A DNA stretch of 64,000 nucleotides. It comes from Luteipulveratus mongoliensis (GTDB lineage: Bacteria; Actinomycetota; Actinomycetes; Actinomycetales; Dermatophilaceae). The stretch covers positions 3,224,001 to 3,288,000 of the forward strand of contig NZ_CP011112.1 of assembly GCF_001190945.1 (NCBI RefSeq), read 5' to 3'. The notes below the pieces were generated by a model. That model had not been told where the DNA came from. It saw nothing but the letters and a program-made list of their open reading frames with translations, and made no database searches. Shown here in pieces: positions 44,208 through 63,440 of the stretch. Both the position numbers and the translations under genes were made by a program. Positions within the stretch are counted from its first letter, which is position 1; each line of letters opens with the position of its first letter.

Positions 44208-44852
44208 ATGAAGAACTACCCGCTCCTCGACGTACGAATCAGCACGCCGAAGCTGGAGCTACGCGGCGCGACTGACGAGCTGTTGGACGAGCTTGCCGAG
44301 GTCGTACGCGCGGGCAAGACCCACGCCGAGCCTGCTCCGTACGACGACCCCATGTCGTTCTATGAGATCGATCCTGACGTGCGTGTTGCCAAGTGGCTCC
44401 AGGCGGTCTGGCGGCGCCGCGGCAAGGTCGAGCCGGATGCCTGGCGGCTGAACTTCATCGTGATGGTCGACGGCCGCGCGGTGGGGGAGCAGACTCTGAG
44501 CGGGGTGCAGTTCTCCACTCTCGGGACGGTGGCCTCCTTCTCGTGGCTGTCTGTCGACGAGCGAGGCCGCGGGCTCGGGCACGAGATGCGGGCCGCGATC
44601 CTGCACCTGGCGTTCGAGGGTCTCGGAGCGAAGGAAGCAGGCAGCGACGCATTCGTGGACAACGAGAGCTCCAATGCGATCTCGCGGGGACTCGGCTACG
44701 AACCCAACGGGTCGGAATGGGCGACGCGGCAAGGGGATCCGGCCCTGTTGAACCGCTGGAAGCTGACCAGGCCCACCTGGGAACAGCACCGCCGAGACGA
44801 CATCCAGCTCCACGATCTCGAGGCCGGCCTGGCCGCCCTACCTCTCGCTTGA
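44208..44852 (+). CDS. GNAT-family acetyltransferase (RimJ/RimL-like)
   Basis: 214 residues. Starts with TPKLELRGATDELLDELAEV, typical of the RimJ-type group, and carries WLSVDERGRGLGHEMRAAIL as acetyl-CoA site, then DNESSNAISRGLGYEPNG. ATG at 44208, likely in one operon with the preceding GNAT. Convergent to the phosphotransferase gene (13 bp). Confidence 0.87.
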   Translation: MKNYPLLDVRISTPKLELRGATDELLDELAEVVRAGKTHAEPAPYDDPMSFYEIDPDVRVAKWLQAVWRRRGKVEPDAWRLNFIVMVDGRAVGEQTLSGVQFSTLGTVASFSWLSVDERGRGLGHEMRAAILHLAFEGLGAKEAGSDAFVDNESSNAISRGLGYEPNGSEWATRQGDPALLNRWKLTRPTWEQHRRDDIQLHDLEAGLAALPLA

Positions 44853-48299: not shown

Positions 48300-48668
48300 T
48301 TATTCCTCGCCGGAGAAGCGTCCCCAGGCGGACTGTCGTGTCATGCCCATGGCCGCGCCGATGCGAGCCCACGCGATCCCGCGGTCACGGGCCCGTAGCA
48401 CCCACTGCCTCAGGTTGGCTTCCACCTGCTCTCCGACAGCGGCCACGCGCGGCAGGTGGGCGAGCAGCTCGTCGTCGCTCATCGACTCCCACGCCGGCAG
48501 TTGAGGCCGGTCGGACCGCCGGTCCTCCGCGAGGATTCCCTCACATCTCCCGACGCACCCGTCGCAGATGTAGATGCCCGGTCCGGCGATGATCTTGCGG
48601 ACCTCACGCTCGGTCCTTGCGCAGAAAGAGCATCGCACCTCGACCGGACCATCACATGTACTAGCCAC
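48300..48668 (-). CDS. ClpX-type zinc-finger / helix-turn-helix protein
   Basis: 122 residues. N-terminal C4 zinc finger as in ClpX: CSFCARTEREVRKIIAGP then YICDGCVGRCEGIL. No AAA+ domain follows; instead the C-terminal part looks like a helix-turn-helix (RGIAWARIGAAMGMTRQSAWGRF). The combination suggests a DNA-binding regulator. GTG at 48668 follows GGGAGGGG. Two identical operators flank its promoter, so it probably regulates itself and the MFS gene. Confidence 0.82.
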   Translation of the reverse strand: MASTCDGPVEVRCSFCARTEREVRKIIAGPGIYICDGCVGRCEGILAEDRRSDRPQLPAWESMSDDELLAHLPRVAAVGEQVEANLRQWVLRARDRGIAWARIGAAMGMTRQSAWGRFSGEE

Positions 48669-48682
48669 GCGGTTCCCCTCCC

Positions 48683-48741
48683 GTCAGGTGACGCCTGACG
48701 CGTCAGGGCGCACCTTACGCATGTCAGGTGATTCCTGACAA
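48683..48741 (-). promoter_or_regulatory. Promoter with two identical operators before the zinc-finger gene
   Basis: Two copies of GTCAGG-TGA-NN-CCTGAC at 48683-48699 and 48723-48739, centres 40 bp apart, plus a lone half-site GTCAGG at 48702-48707. The minus-strand promoter lies between: -35 TTGTCA (48741-48736, inside the upstream operator), 18-bp spacer, -10 TAAGGT (48717-48712). Occupation of either site would block transcription. Confidence 0.78.
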
Positions 48742-48928: not shown

Positions 48929-48956
48929 AGTTGACATAATGTAGATTATCGGCGTT
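48929..48956 (-). other. dif: dif-like XerCD recombination site (chromosome terminus)
   Basis: Read on the minus strand: XerC-type arm AACGCCGATAA (48956-48946), 6-bp centre TCTACA, XerD-type arm TTATGTCAACT (48939-48929). Against E. coli dif, the XerD arm agrees at 9 of 11 positions and the XerC arm at 6 of 11, including the ATAA next to the centre; spacing 11-6-11 is exact. The CGCCGATAAT and ACATTATGTCAA pieces agree with actinobacterial dif sequences as I remember them. The site is an AT-rich island in a non-coding gap, as expected. Confidence 0.85.
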
Positions 48957-49189: not shown

Positions 49190-50722
49190 ATGTCGATCGA
49201 CGTCACAACTCCCGATGAGGACGCGGCCAAGCTGGCTGCCCTGGGCTACAAGCAAGAGCTTCATCGCGGGATGTCCGCGTTCTCCAACTTCGCCGTGTCC
49301 TTCTCGATCATCTCGGTGCTCGCTGGATGCATCACCACCTACTACCTCGCCATGGACGGCGGTGGGCCGATGGCGATCAACCTCGGCTGGCCGCTCTGCT
49401 CGATCATGGTGCTGTGCGTTGCGATGGCGATGGGCGAGATCTGCTCGGTCTACCCGACCTCGGGCGGCCTCTACTTCTGGGCTGGACGCCTCGCCCGGAC
49501 TCACAAGCGCGAATGGGCCTGGTACACAGGCTGGTTCAACTTCATGGGCGAGGTCGGTGTCACGGCGTCCGTGGACTACGGCGCGGCTGTCACCTGGATG
49601 GCCTTCGCGAGTGAGGTGTGGGGCACCGAGGTCACACTCAAGAAGACCTTCGCCCTGTTCCTCATCTTCGTCCTCCTGCACGGCCTGCTCAACACCTTCG
49701 GCGTGAACATCGTCAAGATCCTGTCATCGGTCAGCGCCTGGTGGCACCTGGCCGGCGTTGGGTTCATCGTCGTCGTACTGGCCTTCGTCCCCGACCATCA
49801 CCAGTCGGCGAGCTATGTGTTCACCCACACCAACAACGGGCTCGGCTTCGCGGACGGACTGTTCTCGACTCCGGTCTACGCGTTCTTTATTGGTCTACTC
49901 ATGGCGCAATACACCCTCACCGGCTACGACGCGTCGGCCCACATGGCCGAGGAGACGCATGACGCGACGAGGCAGGCTCCCAAGGGCATCGTTCGGTCGG
50001 TATGGGTGTCGGCGATCGCCGGGTGGATCCTGCTGATCGCCGTGACCGCAGCCATCCAGAACTTCGACAAGGAGCGGGCCAGCGCCACGGGACTCCCCCC
50101 GGCGCAGATCTTCCTCGACGCAGCCGGACGGTCGCTCGGGCTGACACTGCTCGTGATCTGCGGAGTCGCACAGTTCTTCTGCGGGATGGCCTGTGTCACC
50201 TCAAACTCCCGGATGTCGTACGCCTTCTCCCGTGACGGGGCGCTGCCCGGTTCTCGTATCTGGGCCAAGGTCAATCCCCGCACCGGCACACCGACGAACT
50301 CGATCTGGCTCTGCGTGACGTGCTCAGTGGCCCTTACCTTGCCTGCTCTCTGGAACGCGACAGCGTTCTTCGCCGTGGTCTCGGTCGCTGTGATCGGGCT
50401 CTACATCGCCTACACCGTGCCGATCTACCTGCGTCGTCGCAATCGCGAGTTCACTCAGGGCGACTGGCACCTGGGCCGCTGGTCGGCGCCGATCGGCTGG
50501 ATCGCCGTGGCGTGGGTGGCGTTCATCGTTGTGATGTTCATGCTGCCGCAGTACTCCCCCGGCACGATCGGCGACAAGACGTTCAACTATGCGCCGGTCG
50601 CGGTTGTCGGCGTGCTGCTGTTTGCCAGCGTGATGTGGCTGGTCACGGGCCGAAAGCACTTCATGCGCGACGTCCCAGAGGGTCACGACACTCGCCCCGC
50701 CGCCGAGCTGCTGGAGGACTGA
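49190..50722 (+). CDS. APC-family amino acid/amine permease
   Basis: 510 residues with about 12 helices, amino acid-polyamine-organocation superfamily. N-terminal consensus YKQELHRGMSAFSNFAVSFS and helix 1 motif, GEICSVYPTSGGLYFWAG, and GYDASAHMAEETHDATRQAP are typical of the GABA/ethanolamine permease-like branch (BAT1/GabP-like). ATG at 49190 behind GGTGGAGGAA. It is the first gene of a six-gene catabolic operon and probably imports the substrate. Confidence 0.92.
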   Translation: MSIDVTTPDEDAAKLAALGYKQELHRGMSAFSNFAVSFSIISVLAGCITTYYLAMDGGGPMAINLGWPLCSIMVLCVAMAMGEICSVYPTSGGLYFWAGRLARTHKREWAWYTGWFNFMGEVGVTASVDYGAAVTWMAFASEVWGTEVTLKKTFALFLIFVLLHGLLNTFGVNIVKILSSVSAWWHLAGVGFIVVVLAFVPDHHQSASYVFTHTNNGLGFADGLFSTPVYAFFIGLLMAQYTLTGYDASAHMAEETHDATRQAPKGIVRSVWVSAIAGWILLIAVTAAIQNFDKERASATGLPPAQIFLDAAGRSLGLTLLVICGVAQFFCGMACVTSNSRMSYAFSRDGALPGSRIWAKVNPRTGTPTNSIWLCVTCSVALTLPALWNATAFFAVVSVAVIGLYIAYTVPIYLRRRNREFTQGDWHLGRWSAPIGWIAVAWVAFIVVMFMLPQYSPGTIGDKTFNYAPVAVVGVLLFASVMWLVTGRKHFMRDVPEGHDTRPAAELLED

Positions 50723-50728
50723 CCCGTC

Positions 50729-51460
50729 GTGACCGCCGCCACCCACCCCGTCCCCGCCCTGTCGCAGGTGATCCTGCAGCCGACCGGCAACAACGTGTTC
50801 GAGGCGACGGTCGGCCAGCTCGCCACCGCGATCCGTCTCGGCGTGTTCGCCGATGGGGAGCAGCTGCCGCCCGAGAGGGAGCTCGCCGAACAGCTGTCCG
50901 TCAGCAGGATGACACTCCGAGATGCGATCAGTGCGTTGCGCGAGGCCGGCCTCGTGGAGACCCGGCGGGGACGTGGCGGGGGCACCGTGGTGACGTACGA
51001 CGGGCCGGCGGCACCCACTGCGCCCGACACCGAGGCAGCATCTCCGCAGCGCCTGAACGACGTGCTCAGCTTTCGTCGAGTCGTCGAGTCCGGCGCGGCC
51101 GAGCTGGCGGCCGACCAGGCGCTCGACGGGTCGCAGCGCGCCTGGCTGGTCGAGTGTGTCGACCATGCCGCCGCAACGGTCGGCTCCCCCGCATACCGGG
51201 TCGCCGACGCGCGGCTGCACCTGGCGGTCGCGTCGCTGTGCGGGAGCTCGATGCTGATCAGTGCGGTCCGACAGGCACAGGCGGCGCTCGGCGAGATGCT
51301 CGCGTTGATCCCGGTCCTGCCGCGCAACATCGAGCACTCGCAGACGCAGCACGATGCCGTCGTGAGGTGCATTCTCGCGGGCGATGCGGCCGGCGCGCGC
51401 GAAGCCATGATCGAGCACTGCGACGCCACGGCCGAGCTACTGCAGGGACTACTGGGATGA
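50729..51460 (+). CDS. FadR-subfamily GntR transcriptional regulator
   Basis: 243 residues. Winged helix domain at about 25-90 with PPERELAEQLSVSRMTLRDAIS and the wing VETRRGRGGGTVV; FCD effector domain follows (FRRVVESGAAELAAD, ADARLHLAVASL, QTQHDAVVRCILAGDAAGAR), with the Asp/His residues that hold a metal in this group. GTG at 50729, 6 bp after the permease. Likely local repressor relieved by the pathway substrate or an intermediate. Confidence 0.92.
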   Translation: MTAATHPVPALSQVILQPTGNNVFEATVGQLATAIRLGVFADGEQLPPERELAEQLSVSRMTLRDAISALREAGLVETRRGRGGGTVVTYDGPAAPTAPDTEAASPQRLNDVLSFRRVVESGAAELAADQALDGSQRAWLVECVDHAAATVGSPAYRVADARLHLAVASLCGSSMLISAVRQAQAALGEMLALIPVLPRNIEHSQTQHDAVVRCILAGDAAGAREAMIEHCDATAELLQGLLG

Positions 51461-51470
51461 AGGAGCTCCG

Positions 51471-52847
51471 ATGACCGCAACGCCACCGAGATCCATGCTC
51501 ACTGTCGAGGCGCTGACCGCGCTGGTCGACGGCGGTGAGGTCGACACCGTCATTGTGGCCTTCACCGACATGCAGGGTCGGCTGCAGGGCAAGCGGCTCC
51601 ATGCGCAGTACTTCCTCGACTACGCCTTGCACCAGGGCGTTGAAGGCTGCAACTACCTCCTGGCCGTCGACGTTGAGATGAACACCGTTGCGGGATATGC
51701 AATCTCGTCCTGGGAGCGCGGTTACGGCGACTTCGTCATGGAGCTCGACCTCTCGACCCTGCGATACACACCAGGGGACGTACGATCCGCGACGGTCCAG
51801 TGCGACCTCACCTGGATCGACGGCTCAGGTCCGGTACGACCCTCGCCCCGCTCGGTCCTCAGAGCGCAGGTCGAGCGGGCCGCGGCGAGCGGCTGGACCG
51901 CACACGCCGGCACTGAGCTGGAGCTGATGCTTTTCGAGGACTCCTTCGAGACCGCCTGGGACAAGCGCTACGTGGATCTCCAGCCCGCGAATCGCTACAA
52001 CATCGACTACTCCATCCTCGGCGGAGCACGTGTCGAGCCCCTGCTCCGGGAGATCCGTAACGAGATGCACCGGGCAGGCATGGTGGTCGAAGGCGCCAAG
52101 GGTGAGTGCAACTTCGGTCAGCACGAGGTCGGTTTCCGCTTCGACGAGGTGGTCCGCACCTGTGACAACCACGTCGTCTACAAGGAGGGCGCCAAGCAGA
52201 TCGCCGCCCGGCAGGGCACGTCGCTCACCTTCATGGCCAAGTACAACGAGCGCGAAGGCAACAGCTGTCACATCCACCTGTCGCTGCGCGGCGCCGACGG
52301 ATCGATGGTGTTTGCTGACGACAGTCGTCCCGGCGGGCACAGCGAGTTGTTCGACCACTTCCTCGCCGGTCTGCTCGCAAGCGCTCGCGAGCTGACCTAC
52401 TTCTATGCACCGAACATCAACTCCTACAAGCGTTTTGCCGCCGGATCGTTCGCGCCGACGGCCATCGCATGGGGCACGGACAACCGCACCTGTGCGCTGC
52501 GGGTTGTCGGTCATGGGCCGTCCCTGCGAGTCGAGAACCGACTGCCGGGCGGCGATGTGAACCCTTATCTCGCAACCGCAGCGATGCTGGCCGGCGGGCT
52601 GTACGGCATCGAGCACGAGCTCGCTCTCGAGCCGCCCTTCGCCGGCAACGCCTACGAGAGCGACAAGGAGCGAGTACCGACGACGCTCGCGGAGGCACGC
52701 GAGCTGTTGCTCGGGTCCGAACTGGCCCGAGCCGCGTTCGGTGACGACGTCGTTGAGCACTACGCGCACGCCGCGGAGGTCGAGATCGCGGCGTTCAACG
52801 CTGCGGTGACCGACTGGGAACGAGTGAGAGGATTCGAACGCCTGTGA
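51471..52847 (+). CDS. Glutamine-synthetase-like gamma-glutamyl ligase (PuuA/GlnA3/GlnA4 group)
   Basis: 458 residues, glutamine synthetase type I fold. N-terminal VDTVIVAFTDMQGRLQGKR, catalytic GTELELMLFED, GAKGECNFGQHEVGFRF and NRTCALRVVGHG blocks are kept. The motif around the ammonium-binding Asp of true glutamine synthetase (FDGSS) is replaced by TVAGYAISSWERGYGD, so the acceptor is an amine rather than ammonia. With the neighbours this makes a gamma-glutamyl amide from glutamate, ATP and the imported amine. ATG at 51471 follows AAGGAG. Confidence 0.92.
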   Translation: MTATPPRSMLTVEALTALVDGGEVDTVIVAFTDMQGRLQGKRLHAQYFLDYALHQGVEGCNYLLAVDVEMNTVAGYAISSWERGYGDFVMELDLSTLRYTPGDVRSATVQCDLTWIDGSGPVRPSPRSVLRAQVERAAASGWTAHAGTELELMLFEDSFETAWDKRYVDLQPANRYNIDYSILGGARVEPLLREIRNEMHRAGMVVEGAKGECNFGQHEVGFRFDEVVRTCDNHVVYKEGAKQIAARQGTSLTFMAKYNEREGNSCHIHLSLRGADGSMVFADDSRPGGHSELFDHFLAGLLASARELTYFYAPNINSYKRFAAGSFAPTAIAWGTDNRTCALRVVGHGPSLRVENRLPGGDVNPYLATAAMLAGGLYGIEHELALEPPFAGNAYESDKERVPTTLAEARELLLGSELARAAFGDDVVEHYAHAAEVEIAAFNAAVTDWERVRGFERL

Positions 52848-54211
52848 CGACCTACGACGTCATCAACCCGTCGACGGAGCAACGGATCCGTACGGTCGAG
52901 CTGGCCGACACCGAGCAGACCGATGCCGCCGTCGAGCGCGCAGCTGCCGCTGGGCCCGGCTGGCGCGCGATGGCACCAGCGGATCGGGCACGGCTGCTGC
53001 GCGCCTTCGCCGACCAGGTGGACGCGCACCGGGATGAGCTGGCACGGCTGGAGGTGCACAACGCCGGCCACACCATCGGCAATGCTTTGTGGGAGGTCGG
53101 CAACGTCGTCGACGTGCTGGAATACTTTGCCGCAGCACCAGAACGCCTGTGCGGCAAGCAGATTCCCGTCGCCGGGGGCATCGACATCACGTTCCACGAG
53201 CCCCTAGGGGTGGTCGGGATCATCGTGCCGTGGAACTTCCCGATGCCGATCGCCGGCTGGGGCATGGCCCCTGCGCTGGCAGCCGGCAACACGGTCGTCC
53301 TCAAGCCTGCCGAGCTGACTCCCCTGACCGCTCTACGGCTCGGTGAGCTCGCCCTCGAGGCGGGCTTTCCCGAAGGAGTCCTGACTGTCCTTCCCGGTGC
53401 GGGCACCGTGGTCGGACGTCGGCTGGTGACTCACCCTCTCGTGCGCAAGGTCTGCTTCACCGGGTCATCGCGGGTCGGCACGGAGATCATGGCGGCCGCC
53501 GCGGCGGACCTGACGCGGGTCACGCTGGAGCTCGGCGGCAAGAGCGCCAACATTGTGTTTGCCGATGCCGATGTGGAGCGAGCTGCGGCGGCCGCACCCG
53601 GAGCGGTCTTCGACAACGCCGGCCAAGACTGTTGCGCACGAAGCCGGATCCTGGTGCAGCGCAACGTGTTCGACCGCTTCATGGAGCTCCTCGAGCCCGC
53701 GGTCAAGGCGTTCCGCGTCGGGCAGCCCACCAACACCGAGTCCCAGATGGGTCCACTGATCAGTGCTGCGCAGCTCGACCGTGTCCGCGGATTCGTCGAC
53801 GCTGCTGACGTGGAGCTCGCCTTCCGCGGGACCGCGCCCGACGGCCCCGGGTTCTGGTACCCGCCGACCGTCGTCCAGCCGACCAGCACCACGGATCCGG
53901 TGTGGCACGAAGAGGTCTTCGGTCCCGTGGTGGCCGTGCTCCCCTTCGATGACGAGGCCGATGCGATCGCGATGGCCAACGACACGGCGTACGGCCTGTC
54001 CGGCTCCATCTGGACGGAGAACATCGGGCGCGCGTTGCGGGTGACTCGCGCCGTCGAGGCGGGCAACCTCGCAGTCAACAGCAACTCGTCTGTACGCCAC
54101 AGCACGCCGTTCGGCGGCTTCAAGGGCTCCGGTATCGGCCGGGAGCTGGGTCCGGACGCACTCGACGCCTTCACCGAGGTGAAGAACGTCTTCATCGCGA
54201 CTGATCACTGA
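52844..54211 (+). CDS. Aldehyde dehydrogenase (NAD(P)+)
   Basis: 455 residues. Catalytic Cys in NAGQDCCARSRIL, general-base Glu in VTLELGGKSANIVF, Rossmann GSSRVGTEI, and VPWNFPMPIAGWGMAPAL. GTG start overlaps the ligase stop by 4 bp (GTGA). Likely oxidises a gamma-glutamyl aldehyde to the acid, as PuuC does, before hydrolysis by the last gene. Confidence 0.95.
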   Translation: MTTYDVINPSTEQRIRTVELADTEQTDAAVERAAAAGPGWRAMAPADRARLLRAFADQVDAHRDELARLEVHNAGHTIGNALWEVGNVVDVLEYFAAAPERLCGKQIPVAGGIDITFHEPLGVVGIIVPWNFPMPIAGWGMAPALAAGNTVVLKPAELTPLTALRLGELALEAGFPEGVLTVLPGAGTVVGRRLVTHPLVRKVCFTGSSRVGTEIMAAAAADLTRVTLELGGKSANIVFADADVERAAAAAPGAVFDNAGQDCCARSRILVQRNVFDRFMELLEPAVKAFRVGQPTNTESQMGPLISAAQLDRVRGFVDAADVELAFRGTAPDGPGFWYPPTVVQPTSTTDPVWHEEVFGPVVAVLPFDDEADAIAMANDTAYGLSGSIWTENIGRALRVTRAVEAGNLAVNSNSSVRHSTPFGGFKGSGIGRELGPDALDAFTEVKNVFIATDH

Positions 54212-54241
54212 AACACCCACGGACGTAAGGAGATTCGTCAG

Positions 54242-55009
54242 ATGGCAGGCAGACTGTACGGCAAGGTGGCGGTTGTGACCGGCGGATGCTCCGGCATCGG
54301 GCTGGCGACGGCACGACGCTTCGCCGAGGAGGGAGCGCACGTCGTCATCGTCGACCTTGACGAAGAGGGCGGAGCCAAGGTCGCGGCGGAGGTCGGCGGC
54401 CTCTACGTCCGCTGCGATGTCACGAGCGCCGACGACGTCGAGGCGGCCTTCGCGGCGGCGAAGCAGACGTACGGAAGTGTTGACGTCGCGTTCAACAACG
54501 CCGGCATCTCGCCACCGGAGGACGACTCCATCCTGACCACCGACCTGGAGGCATGGCGCCGGGTTCAGGAGGTTAACCTGACGTCGGTCTACCTGTGCTG
54601 CAAGGCGGCGCTCCCCTACATGATCGAGCAAGGCAAGGGGTCGATCATCAACACCGCCTCGTTCGTGGCTCTCATGGGCGCAGCGACCTCGCAGATTTCG
54701 TATACCGCGAGCAAGGGCGGTGTCCTCGCGATGTCACGCGAGCTGGCGGTGCAGTTCGCCCGCCAAGGAGTTCGGGTCAACGCACTGTGTCCTGGGCCGG
54801 TCAACACTCCCCTGCTGCAGGAGCTGTTCGCCAAGGACGTGGAGCGCGCGCAGCGCCGGCTCGTCCATGTTCCGATGGGTCGTTTCGGAGAGCCGGAGGA
54901 GATCGCCAACGCCGTCGTCTTCCTCGCCTCCGACGAGTCGAGCTTCATCACAGCGACGGACTTCCTGGTCGACGGCGGCATCGCGGGCGCCTACGTCACG
55001 CCGCTGTGA
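54242..55009 (+). CDS. Short-chain dehydrogenase/reductase
   Basis: 255 residues, classical SDR. Cofactor motif TGGCSGIG with VDLDEEGG (Asp, hence NAD(H) rather than NADP(H)), NNAG, catalytic Ser in NTASF, Tyr-Lys in SYTASKGG, and the end FITATDFLVDGGI. ATG at 54242 follows AAGGAG. Placed between aldehyde dehydrogenase and hydrolase; could oxidise a gamma-glutamyl amino alcohol to the aldehyde. Confidence 0.94.
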   Translation: MAGRLYGKVAVVTGGCSGIGLATARRFAEEGAHVVIVDLDEEGGAKVAAEVGGLYVRCDVTSADDVEAAFAAAKQTYGSVDVAFNNAGISPPEDDSILTTDLEAWRRVQEVNLTSVYLCCKAALPYMIEQGKGSIINTASFVALMGAATSQISYTASKGGVLAMSRELAVQFARQGVRVNALCPGPVNTPLLQELFAKDVERAQRRLVHVPMGRFGEPEEIANAVVFLASDESSFITATDFLVDGGIAGAYVTPL

Positions 55010-55746
55010 CCGCACCCGTCATCGGGATTACCTGCTACCTCGAGGCAGTGGACCGCGATCCGTGGCGTGGTCAGCGCAGTGTGGTGCTGCCGGAGCGTTA
55101 CGCGGCGCACGTCGATGCCGCCGGCGCAGTGCCGCTCATCGTGCCGCCAGTTCCCGATGCGGACGAGGCGTGGGCCGCCACCGTGCTGCGGCGGGTCGAT
55201 GCGCTCGTCCTGGCCGGCGGCGCCGACCTTGCTGCGGATCACTATGGCGAACAACCGGATTCGCACGCCCAGGAGCCGCGGCATGACCGGGACAGCAGCG
55301 AGCTCGCCCTGGCCCGCGTCAGTGAGCGACTTGATCTGCCGGTGCTGGGGATCTGTCGTGGGATGCAAGTGCTCGTCGTCGAGGCAGGCGGCACCCTCGT
55401 ACAGCACCTGCCCGACGTCGTGGACAGCGACCTGCACCTCCCGGTGGCCGGGGAGTGGCACGAGCACGCGATCCGCACCGTGCCCGGCACCCGCATCGCA
55501 GATCTCCTTGGGGACACGTTCAGCGCGCCGACCTATCACCATCAGGCCGTGGCAACGGCGCCCGGGTTCACCGTCAGTGCCCACGCGCCCGACGGCACGG
55601 TGGAGGCGGTCGAGCACCCGACCGCGCGGTGGAGGATCGGCGTGCAGTGGCATCCCGAGGAGGCCGCCGACCCGCGACTGTTCGAAGCCCTGGTATCGAA
55701 GGCACAGGTACGACCCGCTGACCGAAGGTCCGCGAGCAGCATCTGA
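55006..55746 (+). CDS. puuD: Gamma-glutamyl-gamma-aminobutyrate hydrolase family (PuuD, class I amidotransferase)
   Basis: 246 residues. Nucleophile Cys in LGICRGMQVL; His and Glu in VQWHPEEAAD; N-terminal PVIGITCYLE and LAGGADL are typical of peptidase C26. It cleaves the gamma-glutamyl amide at the end of the pathway, giving back glutamate. GTG start overlaps the SDR stop by 4 bp (GTGA), which fixes it. Confidence 0.93.
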   Translation: MTAPVIGITCYLEAVDRDPWRGQRSVVLPERYAAHVDAAGAVPLIVPPVPDADEAWAATVLRRVDALVLAGGADLAADHYGEQPDSHAQEPRHDRDSSELALARVSERLDLPVLGICRGMQVLVVEAGGTLVQHLPDVVDSDLHLPVAGEWHEHAIRTVPGTRIADLLGDTFSAPTYHHQAVATAPGFTVSAHAPDGTVEAVEHPTARWRIGVQWHPEEAADPRLFEALVSKAQVRPADRRSASSI

Positions 55747-55801
55747 CGAGCTGAATTGCCTACTTCCAGCCGCTGAGCCGCGGGGCGACAGCACGGGCCA
55801 C

Positions 55802-56668
55802 CTACTCGGATACCGAGCCGTACCAGGTGGTGGCAGATGTTGGACGGAACCCCACGGCCCTGTACAACGCACCAGCCGCCTCTGATCCGTACGAGATCTT
55901 CACCCGCTGGGCGCCTTTCGCTGCCAGCCGGTCGATCCCAGCGACCAGCATCGCGCGTGCCAGGCCTTTCCGCTGGAACTCGTCCTCGACCCTGACGGGT
56001 TCTACGAGCCCGACCTTGGTGATCGGATCGAACCAGTACAGGGAGTAGCCGGCGACTCGACCATCAGCGGTCTCGACAGCGAGGTCGAGCCCCGGGTCGT
56101 AGAGCGAGCACTGGGCCAGGCGCTGCGCGACGCCGTCACCACGTCGCTTTCGCATGGGATGCGGTGCATCCGGACGCTGAGTGCGATCGACGATCACGAA
56201 TCCGTCCGGTGGCGCCGGCGCAGCCGGCCGGTCGGCAACGTCCATCCAGCCGGTGCTGTCCTGGTAGCCAGCAGTGAGTCCCGATCGCAGTGCAAGATCC
56301 TGGAAGGTCCGATCGTCCCCTCTTACCGGGATCTCGAAACCCTTCGCCGAGTGCACGGCAGCCTGCTCGGTTGCCCGTGTCCACACGACCTCCAGCTCGA
56401 CGACCGACGTGCCCGGGACAACGACCGGGTCGCACTGCCAGCAGCCATCGGGTGCACTCGTCAGCAGGATGCCGGCAACAGGCCCCGCGTCGTCGAGCCA
56501 GAAGAGCTTTTCGATCTCATCGGACTGCTGCGGTCTCCCCCACCACCACTGCACATCGGCGGCTTCCCAGAGACCGGCGGTGAGATCGGCCAGGCGGGCG
56601 CGCTGCAACAGCTCCGTCGCCAGCGCCAATGCTTCAAGCCCTGTTGCTCTGACCTCATTCACGGACAC
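55802..56668 (-). CDS. GNAT-family acetyltransferase (two-domain)
   Basis: 288 residues. C-terminal GNAT domain with PVRVEDEFQRKGLARAMLVAG as acetyl-CoA loop and SYGSEAAGALYRAVGF. N-terminal half has a second, weaker GNAT-like fold with the Trp-rich stretch VQWWWGRP. GTG at 56668 is 7 nt behind AAGGGGAG; a Met 12 codons upstream has no ribosome site. Confidence 0.84.
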   Translation of the reverse strand: MSVNEVRATGLEALALATELLQRARLADLTAGLWEAADVQWWWGRPQQSDEIEKLFWLDDAGPVAGILLTSAPDGCWQCDPVVVPGTSVVELEVVWTRATEQAAVHSAKGFEIPVRGDDRTFQDLALRSGLTAGYQDSTGWMDVADRPAAPAPPDGFVIVDRTQRPDAPHPMRKRRGDGVAQRLAQCSLYDPGLDLAVETADGRVAGYSLYWFDPITKVGLVEPVRVEDEFQRKGLARAMLVAGIDRLAAKGAQRVKISYGSEAAGALYRAVGFRPTSATTWYGSVSE

Positions 56669-56767
56669 GCCCAACTCCCCTTCGACCGTCCTGATCGACC
56701 GCATGACGAACGTCAGTGTCCATGCGGGACCTCACAGCCGGCCATCAGTTTTCTCGAGCGGGTCTTC

Positions 56768-57283
56768 TCAGCAGTCGAACACCGACCAGCAGATCTCGTT
56801 GCGCAGTCGCTGGTCATCGAGGACGAGCCCACGAATCGCCTCAGGGAGCTGGTCTCGCTGCCACTGACATTCGAGCCGTCCGGCGGCGTCGGCCTCGCTG
56901 ACCGGCACGGATGCACGGACGGCTTTGATCGCATAGGCGGCCGCACCGAGCTCGTGCGCCGCGACGTGCGCGACGGCGCCCGCCTGGCCGGCGGCGTACG
57001 CGGCGTGCCGAGCCGCTCCCCGCAGATCCCGGGCCGCGCCCATCGCATGACCGCCCGCAGCCCGAGCCTCCATCATCTTGACCTCACCCCGCACCCAGGC
57101 GCGCGCGTACGCGATCGCCTCACGCGGCCGAGGATCGCTCGGTCGCGCCGACTCGAACAGACCGAGAACATGCTCGGCACAGGTCGCCGCCCAGAGGGCG
57201 AGAAGGTGATGGTCGGAGTCAGTGAGGCTTCCGCCGCGGCGAATCGTCACCAACCGAGGATCCCGGACCTTCGGGAGGATCAC
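56768..57283 (-). CDS. Imm5-like putative immunity protein
   Basis: 171 residues, helical and Ala-rich. LLALWAATCAEHVLGLFE, DPRPREAIAYARAWVRGE, and repeated AARHAAYAAGQAGAVAHVAAHELGAA (two overlapping stretches) match the Imm-5-like family named after a presumed immunity role in contact-dependent toxin systems. No toxin gene is adjacent on either side, so this is an orphan or has another role. GTG at 57283 follows AAGGAG. Confidence 0.75.
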   Translation of the reverse strand: MILPKVRDPRLVTIRRGGSLTDSDHHLLALWAATCAEHVLGLFESARPSDPRPREAIAYARAWVRGEVKMMEARAAGGHAMGAARDLRGAARHAAYAAGQAGAVAHVAAHELGAAAYAIKAVRASVPVSEADAAGRLECQWQRDQLPEAIRGLVLDDQRLRNEICWSVFDC

Positions 57284-57419
57284 GCCGCACTCCTTCTGAA
57301 CCGTGAGGGTTATTGCATCATCGGGCCAGAACCGACAACCCGTTCAGGTGCACATCCTCCAGGTCTAGCGTCGAAACGAGGAGCACCTTCGAGTTCCTCG
57401 ACAGCAGAGGAGCTTCACC

Positions 57420-57806
57420 ATGTTGAACGACAGCCAGGTCACCGCCAACATCCCCGCCGCCGACCTCGAGCGAGCACGCAGCTTCTACGCTGCCAAGCGC
57501 GGCCTCTCCCCCACGCAGGAGAACCCGGGCGGTCTCATCTACACGACCGCCGGGGGGACGATGTTCTTCCTCTATCAGACGGAGTACGCCGGCAAGGCCG
57601 AGCACACGATCGCCCAGTTCCACGTGTCGGACGTCGGCAACGAGGTCAAGGACCTGCGGGCCAAGGGTGTGACCTTCGAGCACTACGAGATGCCAGGTGC
57701 GACCTGGGACGACGACGTCGCGAGCTTTGAGGACATGGGTCACGCGGCGTGGTTCAAGGACAGCGAGGGCAACATTCTGTGCGTCGACGACATGACGCCG
57801 GCCTGA
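57420..57806 (+). CDS. VOC family protein (single domain)
   Basis: 128 residues, one glyoxalase-like domain: TANIPAADLERARSFYAAKRG, TTAGGTMFFLYQTEYAG, FHVSDVGNEVKDLRAKGV and HAAWFKDSEGNILCVDD. The metal-binding His/Glu pattern is partly kept. ATG at 57420 follows GAGGAG. Convergent with the uvrA-like gene (6 bp). Function unknown. Confidence 0.9.
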   Translation: MLNDSQVTANIPAADLERARSFYAAKRGLSPTQENPGGLIYTTAGGTMFFLYQTEYAGKAEHTIAQFHVSDVGNEVKDLRAKGVTFEHYEMPGATWDDDVASFEDMGHAAWFKDSEGNILCVDDMTPA

Positions 57807-57812
57807 GGCTCG

Positions 57813-60206
<2,394 letters not shown>

Positions 60207-60244
60207 CGTGTCTCCATCTGTGGGGTCAGTTCCGGCCCAGCGGC

Positions 60245-60655
60245 TCAGGACAGCTGCTGGATGCGGACCAGGTTGCCCGCGGGGTCGCGGAACGCGCAGT
60301 CGCGCACACCGTACGGCTGGTCGGTCGGCTCCTGGACGACCTCGGCATCGCTGCCCTGCAGCTTGTCGAAGAGCCCCTCGAGATCCTTGGTCGCCAGGTT
60401 GATGTTGGCGTAGCTGCCCTTGGCCATCATCTCCGCGATGAGTCGTCGCTCGTCGTCGGTGTGGCCCGGAGTCGCCTCCGGTGGGTAGAGCACGATCGAG
60501 GTGTCGGGCTGTCCGGCGGGGCCGACCGTGATCCAGCGCATGCCCTGGTGGCCGACATCGCCTCGAACCTCGAAGCCGAGGGCGTCGCGATAGAAGGCCA
60601 GCGCGGCGTCGGGGTCGTCCTGCGGGAGATAGCTTGCGTGAATGGTGATGTCCAT
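60245..60655 (-). CDS. VOC family protein
   Basis: 136 residues, one VOC domain: DITIHASYLPQDDPDAALAFY, WITVGPAGQPDTSIVLYPP, INLATKDLEGLFDKL and GVRDCAFRDPAGNLVRI. The bleomycin-resistance/glyoxalase layout. ATG at 60655, 10 bp after the AraC stop and 38 bp before uvrA-like; one operon. Confidence 0.9.
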   Translation of the reverse strand: MDITIHASYLPQDDPDAALAFYRDALGFEVRGDVGHQGMRWITVGPAGQPDTSIVLYPPEATPGHTDDERRLIAEMMAKGSYANINLATKDLEGLFDKLQGSDAEVVQEPTDQPYGVRDCAFRDPAGNLVRIQQLS

Positions 60656-60665
60656 GTCGGTCAGG

Positions 60666-61115
60666 CTATGGGCGGCCGGGAGCGGACGCTTCTCGATTCC
60701 TGATCGGTCTGGTGACCTGTTTCGCCACGCAGGGAGCCATGCCGACCGTGGCGTTCGCACCCTCCTGCCGATAGACGCTGGGCGGTACGCCGACGAGCTC
60801 GGTGAAGCGGGTACTGAACGTCCCGAGTGACGAGCAGCCGACCTCGAAGCAGACGTCGGTGACGCTGAGGTCGCCGCGACGCAGCAGGGCCATGGCCCGT
60901 TCGATGCGTCGAGTCATCAGGTACGAGTACGGAGACTCCCCGTACGCGCGCCGGAACTCCCGGCTCAGGTGACCGGCTGACATGTGCGCGTCGCGCGCGA
61001 GAGTCTCGACGTTGAGCGGCTGGGCGTACTCCCGGTCGATCCGGTCGCGGACACGGCGAAGACGCGCGAGGTCACGCAGGTGCTGACCCTCGTCCGATCT
61101 GCTCGTCACCTGCAT
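60666..61115 (-). CDS. AraC-family transcriptional regulator (DNA-binding domain only)
   Basis: 149 residues, essentially only the double helix-turn-helix: PLNVETLARDAHMSAGHLSR, FRRAYGESPYSYLMTRRIERAM and DVCFEVGCSSLGTFSTRF. No effector domain, like SoxS/MarA. ATG at 61115 gives a 44-bp overlap with the preceding gene; a later in-frame start would remove it but cut nothing essential. Likely activates its own operon. Confidence 0.9.
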   Translation of the reverse strand: MQVTSRSDEGQHLRDLARLRRVRDRIDREYAQPLNVETLARDAHMSAGHLSREFRRAYGESPYSYLMTRRIERAMALLRRGDLSVTDVCFEVGCSSLGTFSTRFTELVGVPPSVYRQEGANATVGMAPCVAKQVTRPIRNREASAPGRP

Positions 61116-61695
61116 GATCGTGCCACGACTCGCCGACCGGAGACCGGCCACTTCTACGCAGCAGGGCCACGAGATCGCCGCCGGAGGCAGGCCCAGACTG
61201 CTGCGCAAAGCCCTCCGCCGCGAAAGACTCCCCCAGCAACGCGGTCAGCCCAACGTGTGCGACGGCGACGGCCTCGTGCTCGAACGCGATCTCGAGTCCC
61301 AACGACGTGGCCAGATCCCAGGTGTGGATCACCGACTCGGCGATCAGCTCGTCGACCAGGACGGACGTCGGCGTCTCTCCGCGATACGGCATCGTCAGGG
61401 TCGGGCCGGCTGATTCCAGGCTTTCCAGCAGCGCCAGGGACGCCGCACGCTGATCGACCGACACGTCCTCGGATGCCACATAGGTCGGCGAACCATCGGC
61501 CAGGGGCGGCTCGAGCCCGGCCGCGCTTGCGGCAAAGACCTGCTGCCAGCCGACGATGTGCTCGACCAGGCGACGGACGTCGTACTCGGCACACGGGGTG
61601 ACTCGGCCCAGGTCATCGGGTCCCATCCCGTCCACCACGCCCTGCATGGTCCGCAGAACTCCCGCGAGCAGCTGCTTCCGGTGATCGCTCTCCAC
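61072..61695 (-). CDS. TIGR03086 family metal-binding protein (mycothiol-dependent maleylpyruvate isomerase fold)
   Basis: 207 residues, DinB-like four-helix bundle. Metal-binding His residues: LVEHIVGWQQVFAAS and ESVIHTWDLATSLGL; AHVGLTALLGESFAAEGF follows, typical of TIGR03086. Such proteins often use mycothiol as cofactor. GTG at 61695 stands 6 nt after TAGGGT. First gene of the four-gene minus-strand operon. Confidence 0.88.
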   Translation of the reverse strand: MESDHRKQLLAGVLRTMQGVVDGMGPDDLGRVTPCAEYDVRRLVEHIVGWQQVFAASAAGLEPPLADGSPTYVASEDVSVDQRAASLALLESLESAGPTLTMPYRGETPTSVLVDELIAESVIHTWDLATSLGLEIAFEHEAVAVAHVGLTALLGESFAAEGFAQQSGPASGGDLVALLRRSGRSPVGESWHDHAGDEQIGRGSAPA

Positions 61696-61701
61696 GGGTT
61701 G

Positions 61702-61707
61702 ACCCTA
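61702..61707 (-). promoter_or_regulatory. -10 hexamer for leaderless TIGR03086 mRNA
   Basis: TAGGGT on the minus strand, 6 nt before the GTG at 61695; no ribosome site. Confidence 0.52.
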
Positions 61708-62105
61708 GGCGCCACGCGCGCGGAATCGATTACTAGGGCCTTCTTTGGCAAAGATTCGGCAAAGTTCCGGACGAACCGCACAAAACGCTCGCTCCTACCT
61801 TCCAGTAACAGCACCGCGCGTGCTCTAGTTGCCCAAACACCCGCCAACCAATGGCACCCCGCGACGCTTTTGCGTGCCCGTTCACAAAAGGCGTTCCGGG
61901 GTGGAACGGTATGCCCTGAACGTTGGCGGGTACCTGTCCAGTTGAACCATGGAGCTCTGCGTATCTCCAGCTGAGATTCTCGAATCTTGGCGATTCGCAA
62001 TGCTCTACAACCCATTTCGCCCCACTAGCATCATCGCCACGAGCCAATCCTGGCTCGCTCTTTCTGGCCTGTCGGGGCGCGGGCCTCATATGAGGGGAAT
62101 CACCT
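61708..62105. other. Long gene-free leader before the secreted protein gene
   Basis: About 400 bp, noticeably poorer in GC than the rest. Holds a perfect 7-bp hairpin CGAGCCA-ATCC-TGGCTCG (62040-62057) followed by CTCTTTCT, an imperfect repeat around 61860-61895 (CGCTTTTGCG ... CACAAAAGGCG) and GAATC-TTGGC-GATTC near 61982. No known riboswitch could be identified. Confidence 0.5.
62040..62057 (+). terminator. Terminator-like hairpin in the leader
   Basis: Stem CGAGCCA / TGGCTCG, loop ATCC, then a pyrimidine run CTCTTTCT. It lies 49 bp before the ATG of the secreted protein, a place where an attenuator would act. Confidence 0.45.
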
Positions 62106-63374
62106 ATGAAGAGATTGCAAGTCGGACTGGCCGCTTCTGTTCTGGTGGCCGGATTCGCAGGACCGGCTGCGACGGCCGACGCTGCCACTCCGACCGCTGT
62201 AGCACCGTTCACGCAGACGGGCTTTACAGCAGGTGCCTTTGGCACCCAGGTTTCGACCACTGTGGCGAACCTGCGTTCAGGGCCGACGTCGTACTCCGGC
62301 GTCAGCTGCACATCACTCGCGGGCCTCACGCGTAAGAACAGCGTGGCGTCGCTCAACCTCCCCGGTGTGCTCACCGGTGGGGCTGTCTCCACGACTTCCA
62401 AGAGCATCAGTGACGCCCGCGGCCGCACGGCCGAGGCCACCTCGACCGTCGGTGCGATCAACCTGCTCAAGGGCGCAGTGACCGCTAAGGCACTCAGCAC
62501 CAAGGCCAGCTCCACGGTCTCGCTCGCTGGTGCGGCGTCCGGCACGAACTCGATGACGCTCGTCGGCCTCACGATCGGTGGCCGGACAGTGGGTGCCGAC
62601 GTCAGCCCCAACACGACGCTGGCCCTCAACGTCGGCGGCAAGCCGCTGGCCAAGGTCGTCATCAACGAGCAGGGCAAGACGACGGTCAACGGCCTCGTCC
62701 GCGCCTACACCCGTGCGCTGCACGTGACCGTCAACGCGAAGAACACGCTGGGCCTGCCCATCGGCGCGGAGATTGTCGTCGGTCAGTCGTCGGCTGCGCT
62801 CAACGCGGTGCCGGCCGGCTTTGCGACGGGCAACGGTTACGCGCTCAAGGCCACGCTGCTCAATGGCACGGTCAAGTCGGGTCCGCACGCTTACATGTCG
62901 GTGCCTTGCGCAGGTGGCGCCGCACACAACAGCACCGCAGACGGCAGCGTCCCGGGCCTCGTGTCCGCGGGTGTCACCACGGTCGACACCAAGAGCACGA
63001 CGGTTCCGTCGACCAAGACCGACGTCAACAGCACCATCGCGAGCGCGTCCGTCCTGGGCGGTCTCGTGAAGGCGACTGGCATCAAGGCGGAGACGTCAGC
63101 CAGCCGTCTGGCCCCGATGTCTCCGGTCGTCACCACCGACACCTCGAAGTTCCTGAGCGTGAAGGTTGCCGGCCTGCCGGCCATCACCGGCGCGGTGGCT
63201 CCGAACACGAAGGTTCGCGTTCCGGGGCTGGGTTCGGTCACGTTCCACAAGGTGGAGAAGACCGCCACCGGAATCCGCGTGACGATGGTTTACATCGTTC
63301 TGGAGAAGCTCCTCGGCAACCTGCCGACGAACAGCGTTGTCGAGCTCGGAGTTTCCGAGTCCGGCGTGCGCTGA
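62106..63374 (+). CDS. Secreted choice-of-anchor P family protein
   Basis: 422 residues. Signal peptide MKRLQVGLAASVLVAGFAGP ends near ATADA. The mature part has two related halves rich in Thr/Ser/Val/Gly strands: each has a Cys-containing segment (GVSCTSLAGLTR; MSVPCAGGAAHN) and strings such as LNLPGVLTGGAVSTTSKS and SVPGLVSAGVTTVDTKSTT. This is the choice-of-anchor P pattern of actinobacterial surface proteins; no sortase motif or C-terminal helix follows, so it is probably released. ATG at 62106 follows AGGGGA. Confidence 0.82.
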   Translation: MKRLQVGLAASVLVAGFAGPAATADAATPTAVAPFTQTGFTAGAFGTQVSTTVANLRSGPTSYSGVSCTSLAGLTRKNSVASLNLPGVLTGGAVSTTSKSISDARGRTAEATSTVGAINLLKGAVTAKALSTKASSTVSLAGAASGTNSMTLVGLTIGGRTVGADVSPNTTLALNVGGKPLAKVVINEQGKTTVNGLVRAYTRALHVTVNAKNTLGLPIGAEIVVGQSSAALNAVPAGFATGNGYALKATLLNGTVKSGPHAYMSVPCAGGAAHNSTADGSVPGLVSAGVTTVDTKSTTVPSTKTDVNSTIASASVLGGLVKATGIKAETSASRLAPMSPVVTTDTSKFLSVKVAGLPAITGAVAPNTKVRVPGLGSVTFHKVEKTATGIRVTMVYIVLEKLLGNLPTNSVVELGVSESGVR

Positions 63375-63405
63375 TCACGGAGTCACAGCAGCACTAGCAG
63401 TGTCT

Positions 63406-63440
63406 GGCGGCGTCGCGGGGTCCTCCCCCGTGGCGCCGCC
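63406..63440 (+). terminator. Terminator after the secreted protein gene
   Basis: 15-bp stem starting GGCGGCG, with two G-U pairs and a 5-nt loop (TCCTC), 31 bp after the stop codon. Followed by CATTGCTGTT. Convincing intrinsic terminator for a high-GC genome. Confidence 0.8.

Follow-up and report, generated by a model that had tools for sequence, protein, structure and literature searches.

The window (the whole stretch of DNA analysed, 64,000 nucleotides) contains on its minus strand, at positions 48929-48956, the 28-bp sequence AACGCCGATAA-TCTACA-TTATGTCAACT (5' to 3'), which is composed of a XerC-type arm (AACGCCGATAA; 48946-48956), a 6-bp central region (TCTACA; 48940-48945), and a XerD-type arm (TTATGTCAACT; 48929-48939). 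An earlier note on this DNA had read it as a dif-like site of 11-6-11 layout, forming an AT-rich island in a non-coding gap, and each part of this description was borne out by the window sequence. The gap, of about 520 bp, extends from the start of a zinc-finger coding sequence (48668, minus strand) to the likely ATG of a permease gene (49190), and the G+C content was 42% in a 40-bp interval over the 28-mer, versus approximately 65-70% around it. The XerD-type arm agrees at 9 of 11 bases, as had been claimed, with the sequence that we take to be the E. coli dif. When relatives were compared, the CCGATAA part of the XerC-type arm was kept and its first three bases varied; the central region differed among relatives, and the XerD-type arm was nearly invariant except for its last bases. 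The 28-mer thus has the dif format, with two 11-bp arms and a 6-bp centre that fit the lineage consensus.

The gap is flanked on the left by the gene for a ClpX-type zinc-finger protein of 122 amino acids (48300-48668, minus strand) and on the right by the gene for an amino-acid permease (about 49190-50722, plus strand). The C-terminal part of the zinc-finger protein looks helix-turn-helix-like, and its closest relative, found in genome G039, was 45% identical. The stretch just upstream of its gene (48683-48739) holds two palindromes of 17 bp, GTCAGGTGACGCCTGAC and GTCAGGTGATTCCTGAC, placed 40 bp apart, and a half-site at 48702. No further sites of this kind occur in the genome, so the pair may serve as operators through which the zinc-finger gene is autoregulated. 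On the other side, the run of genes adjoining the 28-mer (49190-54211; the permease, a GntR/FCD regulator, a glutamine-synthetase-like enzyme, and an aldehyde dehydrogenase) resembles a gamma-glutamyl-polyamine breakdown operon. The surroundings had also been described as accessory. Of the neighbouring genes searched, a GNAT acetyltransferase gene (44208-44852) has a 71% identical relative at 1.4 kb from dif in G001, a genome of the same genus; the others were not shared with relatives, as is usual for terminus regions. This scant conservation of the neighbours counts against the dif reading.

The genome is a complete chromosome in a single contig (5,420,910 bp). The search of this entire sequence with the 28-mer, allowing up to three mismatches, gave one match only (3,272,929-3,272,956), and the reversed control pattern had no match across the whole 5.42-Mb chromosome. 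The sole dnaA gene is at 506,665-508,020. Under the assumption of a circular chromosome with the origin at dnaA, the antipode is at approximately 3.218 Mb, so that some 55 kb, about 1% of the chromosome, separate it from the site (3.273 Mb). Note that dif is the point of FtsK convergence and not necessarily the exact meeting point of the replication forks (PMC13342612).

An AT-rich stretch in a non-coding gap might resemble dif by chance, and the gap here is indeed non-coding and the site AT-richer than its surroundings. However, the gapped core GATAA-N6-TTATGTCAACT had one match in the window at up to three mismatches, where 0.02 were expected by chance. Conservation was examined with the pattern CCGATAA-N6-TTATGTCAA (one mismatch allowed) in 100 genomes of the same family, 86 of which were of good quality. 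The dif core was present in 84 of these 86, mostly once in each, and the reversed control pattern gave no match in any of the 100 genomes. The positional evidence, namely the dnaA antipode and the GGGGGAG switch in this genome and in relatives (see below), is independent of these counts. The family-wide conservation refutes the chance match, to which we assign a negligible probability. The exact 24-base core was found at 63 places among the named genomes, all but one of them in Actinobacteria, including the genera Nocardia, Rhodococcus, Mycobacterium, and Arthrobacter; the sole non-actinobacterial record was that of Priestia endophytica (L165).

The proteins expected to act at dif are encoded in the genome. 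Six tyrosine-recombinase matches were found, among which the XerD gene (3,191 kb, 82 kb from dif) scored above the NCBIfam equivalog cut-off. For a XerC-like recombinase at 2,473 kb, the best family was XerC, with a score of 325.8 bits, slightly below the cut-off of 335.15. The genome also encodes one gamma-domain FtsK, and this domain scored above its cut-off.

GC skew and motif polarity were analysed genome-wide with 80 evenly spaced 20-kb samples and, around the site, with 384 kb of contiguous sequence. The cumulative GC skew of the 80 samples had its minimum near dnaA and its maximum in the sample holding dif, so that the skew extremum at which the earlier note had expected a genuine site was found there at the coarse scale; however, the contiguous 384-kb map peaked at 3.137 Mb, 136 kb from dif, and the two-segment fit to the 80 samples placed the break at 2.94-3.00 Mb. 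The GC skew agrees with the site only coarsely. Since the skew of this genome is weak (about 0.01-0.04), it cannot place the site by itself, and the polarity switch of the heptamer GGGGGAG at the site replaces it as the decisive evidence.

A search for oligomers with replichore bias gave CGGGGGAG as the most polar octamer between the replichores (123 versus 5). In the contiguous 384 kb, the left side of the site has 47 copies of GGGGGAG, every one of them on the plus strand, and the right side has 63, every one on the minus strand; all 110 copies point at dif, and the strand flip was bracketed between -4446 and +1164 bp of dif. The window itself holds 14 plus-strand copies to the left (2789-44489; first bases at 2789, 7878, 8419, 10892, 11484, 17247, 17431, 24004, 25429, 30472, 35502, 37628, 42594, and 44483) and 9 minus-strand copies to the right (50093-63429; lowest bases at 50093, 50554, 51184, 56535, 57506, 58236, 58792, 61228, and 63423), all of them pointing at dif. 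In the genome-wide 20-kb samples, the two arms gave counts of 130:3 and 109:14. The density of the motif climbed steadily from 1.7 to 4.7 copies per 20 kb towards dif. Being strand-biased and more abundant towards the terminus, GGGGGAG fits the description of architecture-imparting sequences (AIMS). Gene direction was ruled out as the cause of this polarity, because about 59% of the coding bases are transcribed towards dif (by a rough gene call) and, of the 110 copies, 57 are in sense orientation, 45 are antisense, and 8 are intergenic. The E. coli FtsK-orienting polar sequence (KOPS) GGGNAGGG (23 towards dif, 15 away) and the B. subtilis-type motif GAGAAGGG (7:4) were not usefully polar in this sequence.

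The same polarity was observed around dif in four relatives, with ratios of copies towards and away from dif of 48:3, 61:1, 76:2, and 70:3. The best switch interval included dif within 1.5 kb in three of the four (G012, G028, and G044); in the remaining one (G001), it was 1.0-4.7 kb to one side of dif, with two to three discordant copies. In addition, 62 other actinobacterial loci were taken from named records (up to 8 kb each, many genera). These loci had been picked by the dif core alone, so that GGGGGAG provides an independent test; it pointed towards dif 233:4 and was the top in polarity among all heptamers.

Some relatives have additional dif-like sites whose 6-bp centres differ (L030, L032, L033, L024, and L031; G001, G005, and G013), several of them on smaller contigs. 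The few copies of GGGGGAG within 1.5 kb of such secondary sites all pointed at them (11 of 11), as would suit secondary replicons or integrated elements that each possess a dif. A single contig of G001 carries two identical dif-like cores, CCGATAATTATGATTATGTCAA, as direct repeats at a distance of 45 kb (C1:11495-11516 and C1:56797-56818), which are possibly the ends of a Xer-using element. Three dif-like cores, each with a centre of its own, were shared as a set, within about 61 kb, by G004 (C29:30347-91748) and G107 (C1:1832868-1894105), two species of one genus, with the order mirrored.

Such sites, present with other centres in the relatives G001, G005, G013, G004, and G107, give some ground for asking if the 28-mer could itself be a dif-like attachment site (an attL/attR remnant or a target) of a Xer-using integrative element or an integrated plasmid. 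The one copy in the whole genome already nearly refutes this explanation, and the location opposite dnaA and the flip of a chromosome-wide GGGGGAG polarity within a few kb of the site also stand against it; we regard it as highly improbable.

Another explanation accepts the site as dif and takes the GGGGGAG polarity as a by-product of replication-strand mutation bias, not as a signal for FtsK. Oligomers with a strand bias are a general feature of replichore borders (PMC5993296), and GGGGGAG is G-rich, like leading strands. Against this, the weak skew of about ±0.02 fails to resolve the site, yet the polarity of GGGGGAG is 110:0; the motif is all-or-none, unlike the E. coli KOPS GGGNAGGG at 23:15, its density increases towards dif, and the few copies around the secondary dif-like sites converge too (11/11). 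We therefore consider a mere by-product unlikely, although with appreciably more weight than the attachment site.

We conclude, with a probability of roughly 97%, that the 28-mer is the chromosomal dif, at which dimers would be resolved by FtsK-guided XerC/XerD recombination. The single copy, the distance of about 1% from the dnaA antipode, the conservation in the family, and the GGGGGAG switch all agree with the original claim, and the suggestion that the window spans the terminus region is upheld by the distance of about 55 kb to the antipode and by the flip at the site. A dif is to be expected in a genome of this kind. According to the scheme known for E. coli and further model systems (PMC3025954, PMC13342612), homologous recombination would fuse the sister chromosomes into a dimer, and septal FtsK, presumably oriented by the polar GGGGGAG on both arms, would pump the DNA towards dif. 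FtsK would then reach XerC and XerD on the two 11-bp arms and activate XerD, which, with XerC, would carry out strand exchanges around the 6-bp centre so that two monomers are restored. By analogy, XerC and XerD probably bind and recombine at the predicted site, and FtsK may read GGGGGAG.

The terminus of this chromosome is thus placed to a few kb, a precision that the weak GC skew does not allow. For high-GC actinobacterial genomes, this suggests the rule that dif is where GGGGGAG flips strand. In the genomes studied, hardly any copy near dif departed from the pattern, which makes what FtsK reads in Actinobacteria a directly testable question.

In E. coli, FtsK is guided by the KOPS GGGNAGGG, a short, G-rich, polar motif that points at dif and is denser near the terminus. 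GGGGGAG is alike in being a short G-rich polar motif aimed at dif and denser near the terminus; in this genome, however, GGGNAGGG itself is non-polar, and the polar motif, GGGGGAG, is a candidate FtsK-orienting sequence. It may be, with chances that we put slightly below even, that GGGGGAG is the FtsK loading and orienting sequence of most Actinobacteria, in the place of GGGNAGGG, and also the organiser of secondary replicons or integrated elements with their own dif-like sites of different centres. In our literature search, which covered mainly papers outside subscription journals, no test of GGGGGAG reading by an actinobacterial FtsK was found.

The dif of Frankia alni, CACGCCGATAATGCACATTATGTCAAGT, served as the actinobacterial seed in a previous study (PMC3025954). 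It shares with the present site the length of 28 bp, the 11-6-11 layout, the single copy, and the location opposite the origin, and 24 of the 28 bases are identical; the mismatches are at positions 1, 13, 14, and 27, all of which are variable in relatives. In several Corynebacterium genomes, dif was sought by plotting the AIMS octamers (T/C)GGGGGAG and G(A/T/C)GGGGGA (PMC2830990, PMC3022926, PMC3219685, PMC3350403), with 856 versus 61 copies for C. aurimucosum in one of these papers. The motif is the same as ours, is on the leading strand, and switches at the predicted dif, and given this publication as AIMS, little about the motif is new. The difference is that here the polarity was found in another family and at 62 named loci from many genera of Actinobacteria, and that the switch could be confined to a few kb; the present case extends the known AIMS pattern to another family and sharpens the position of the switch.
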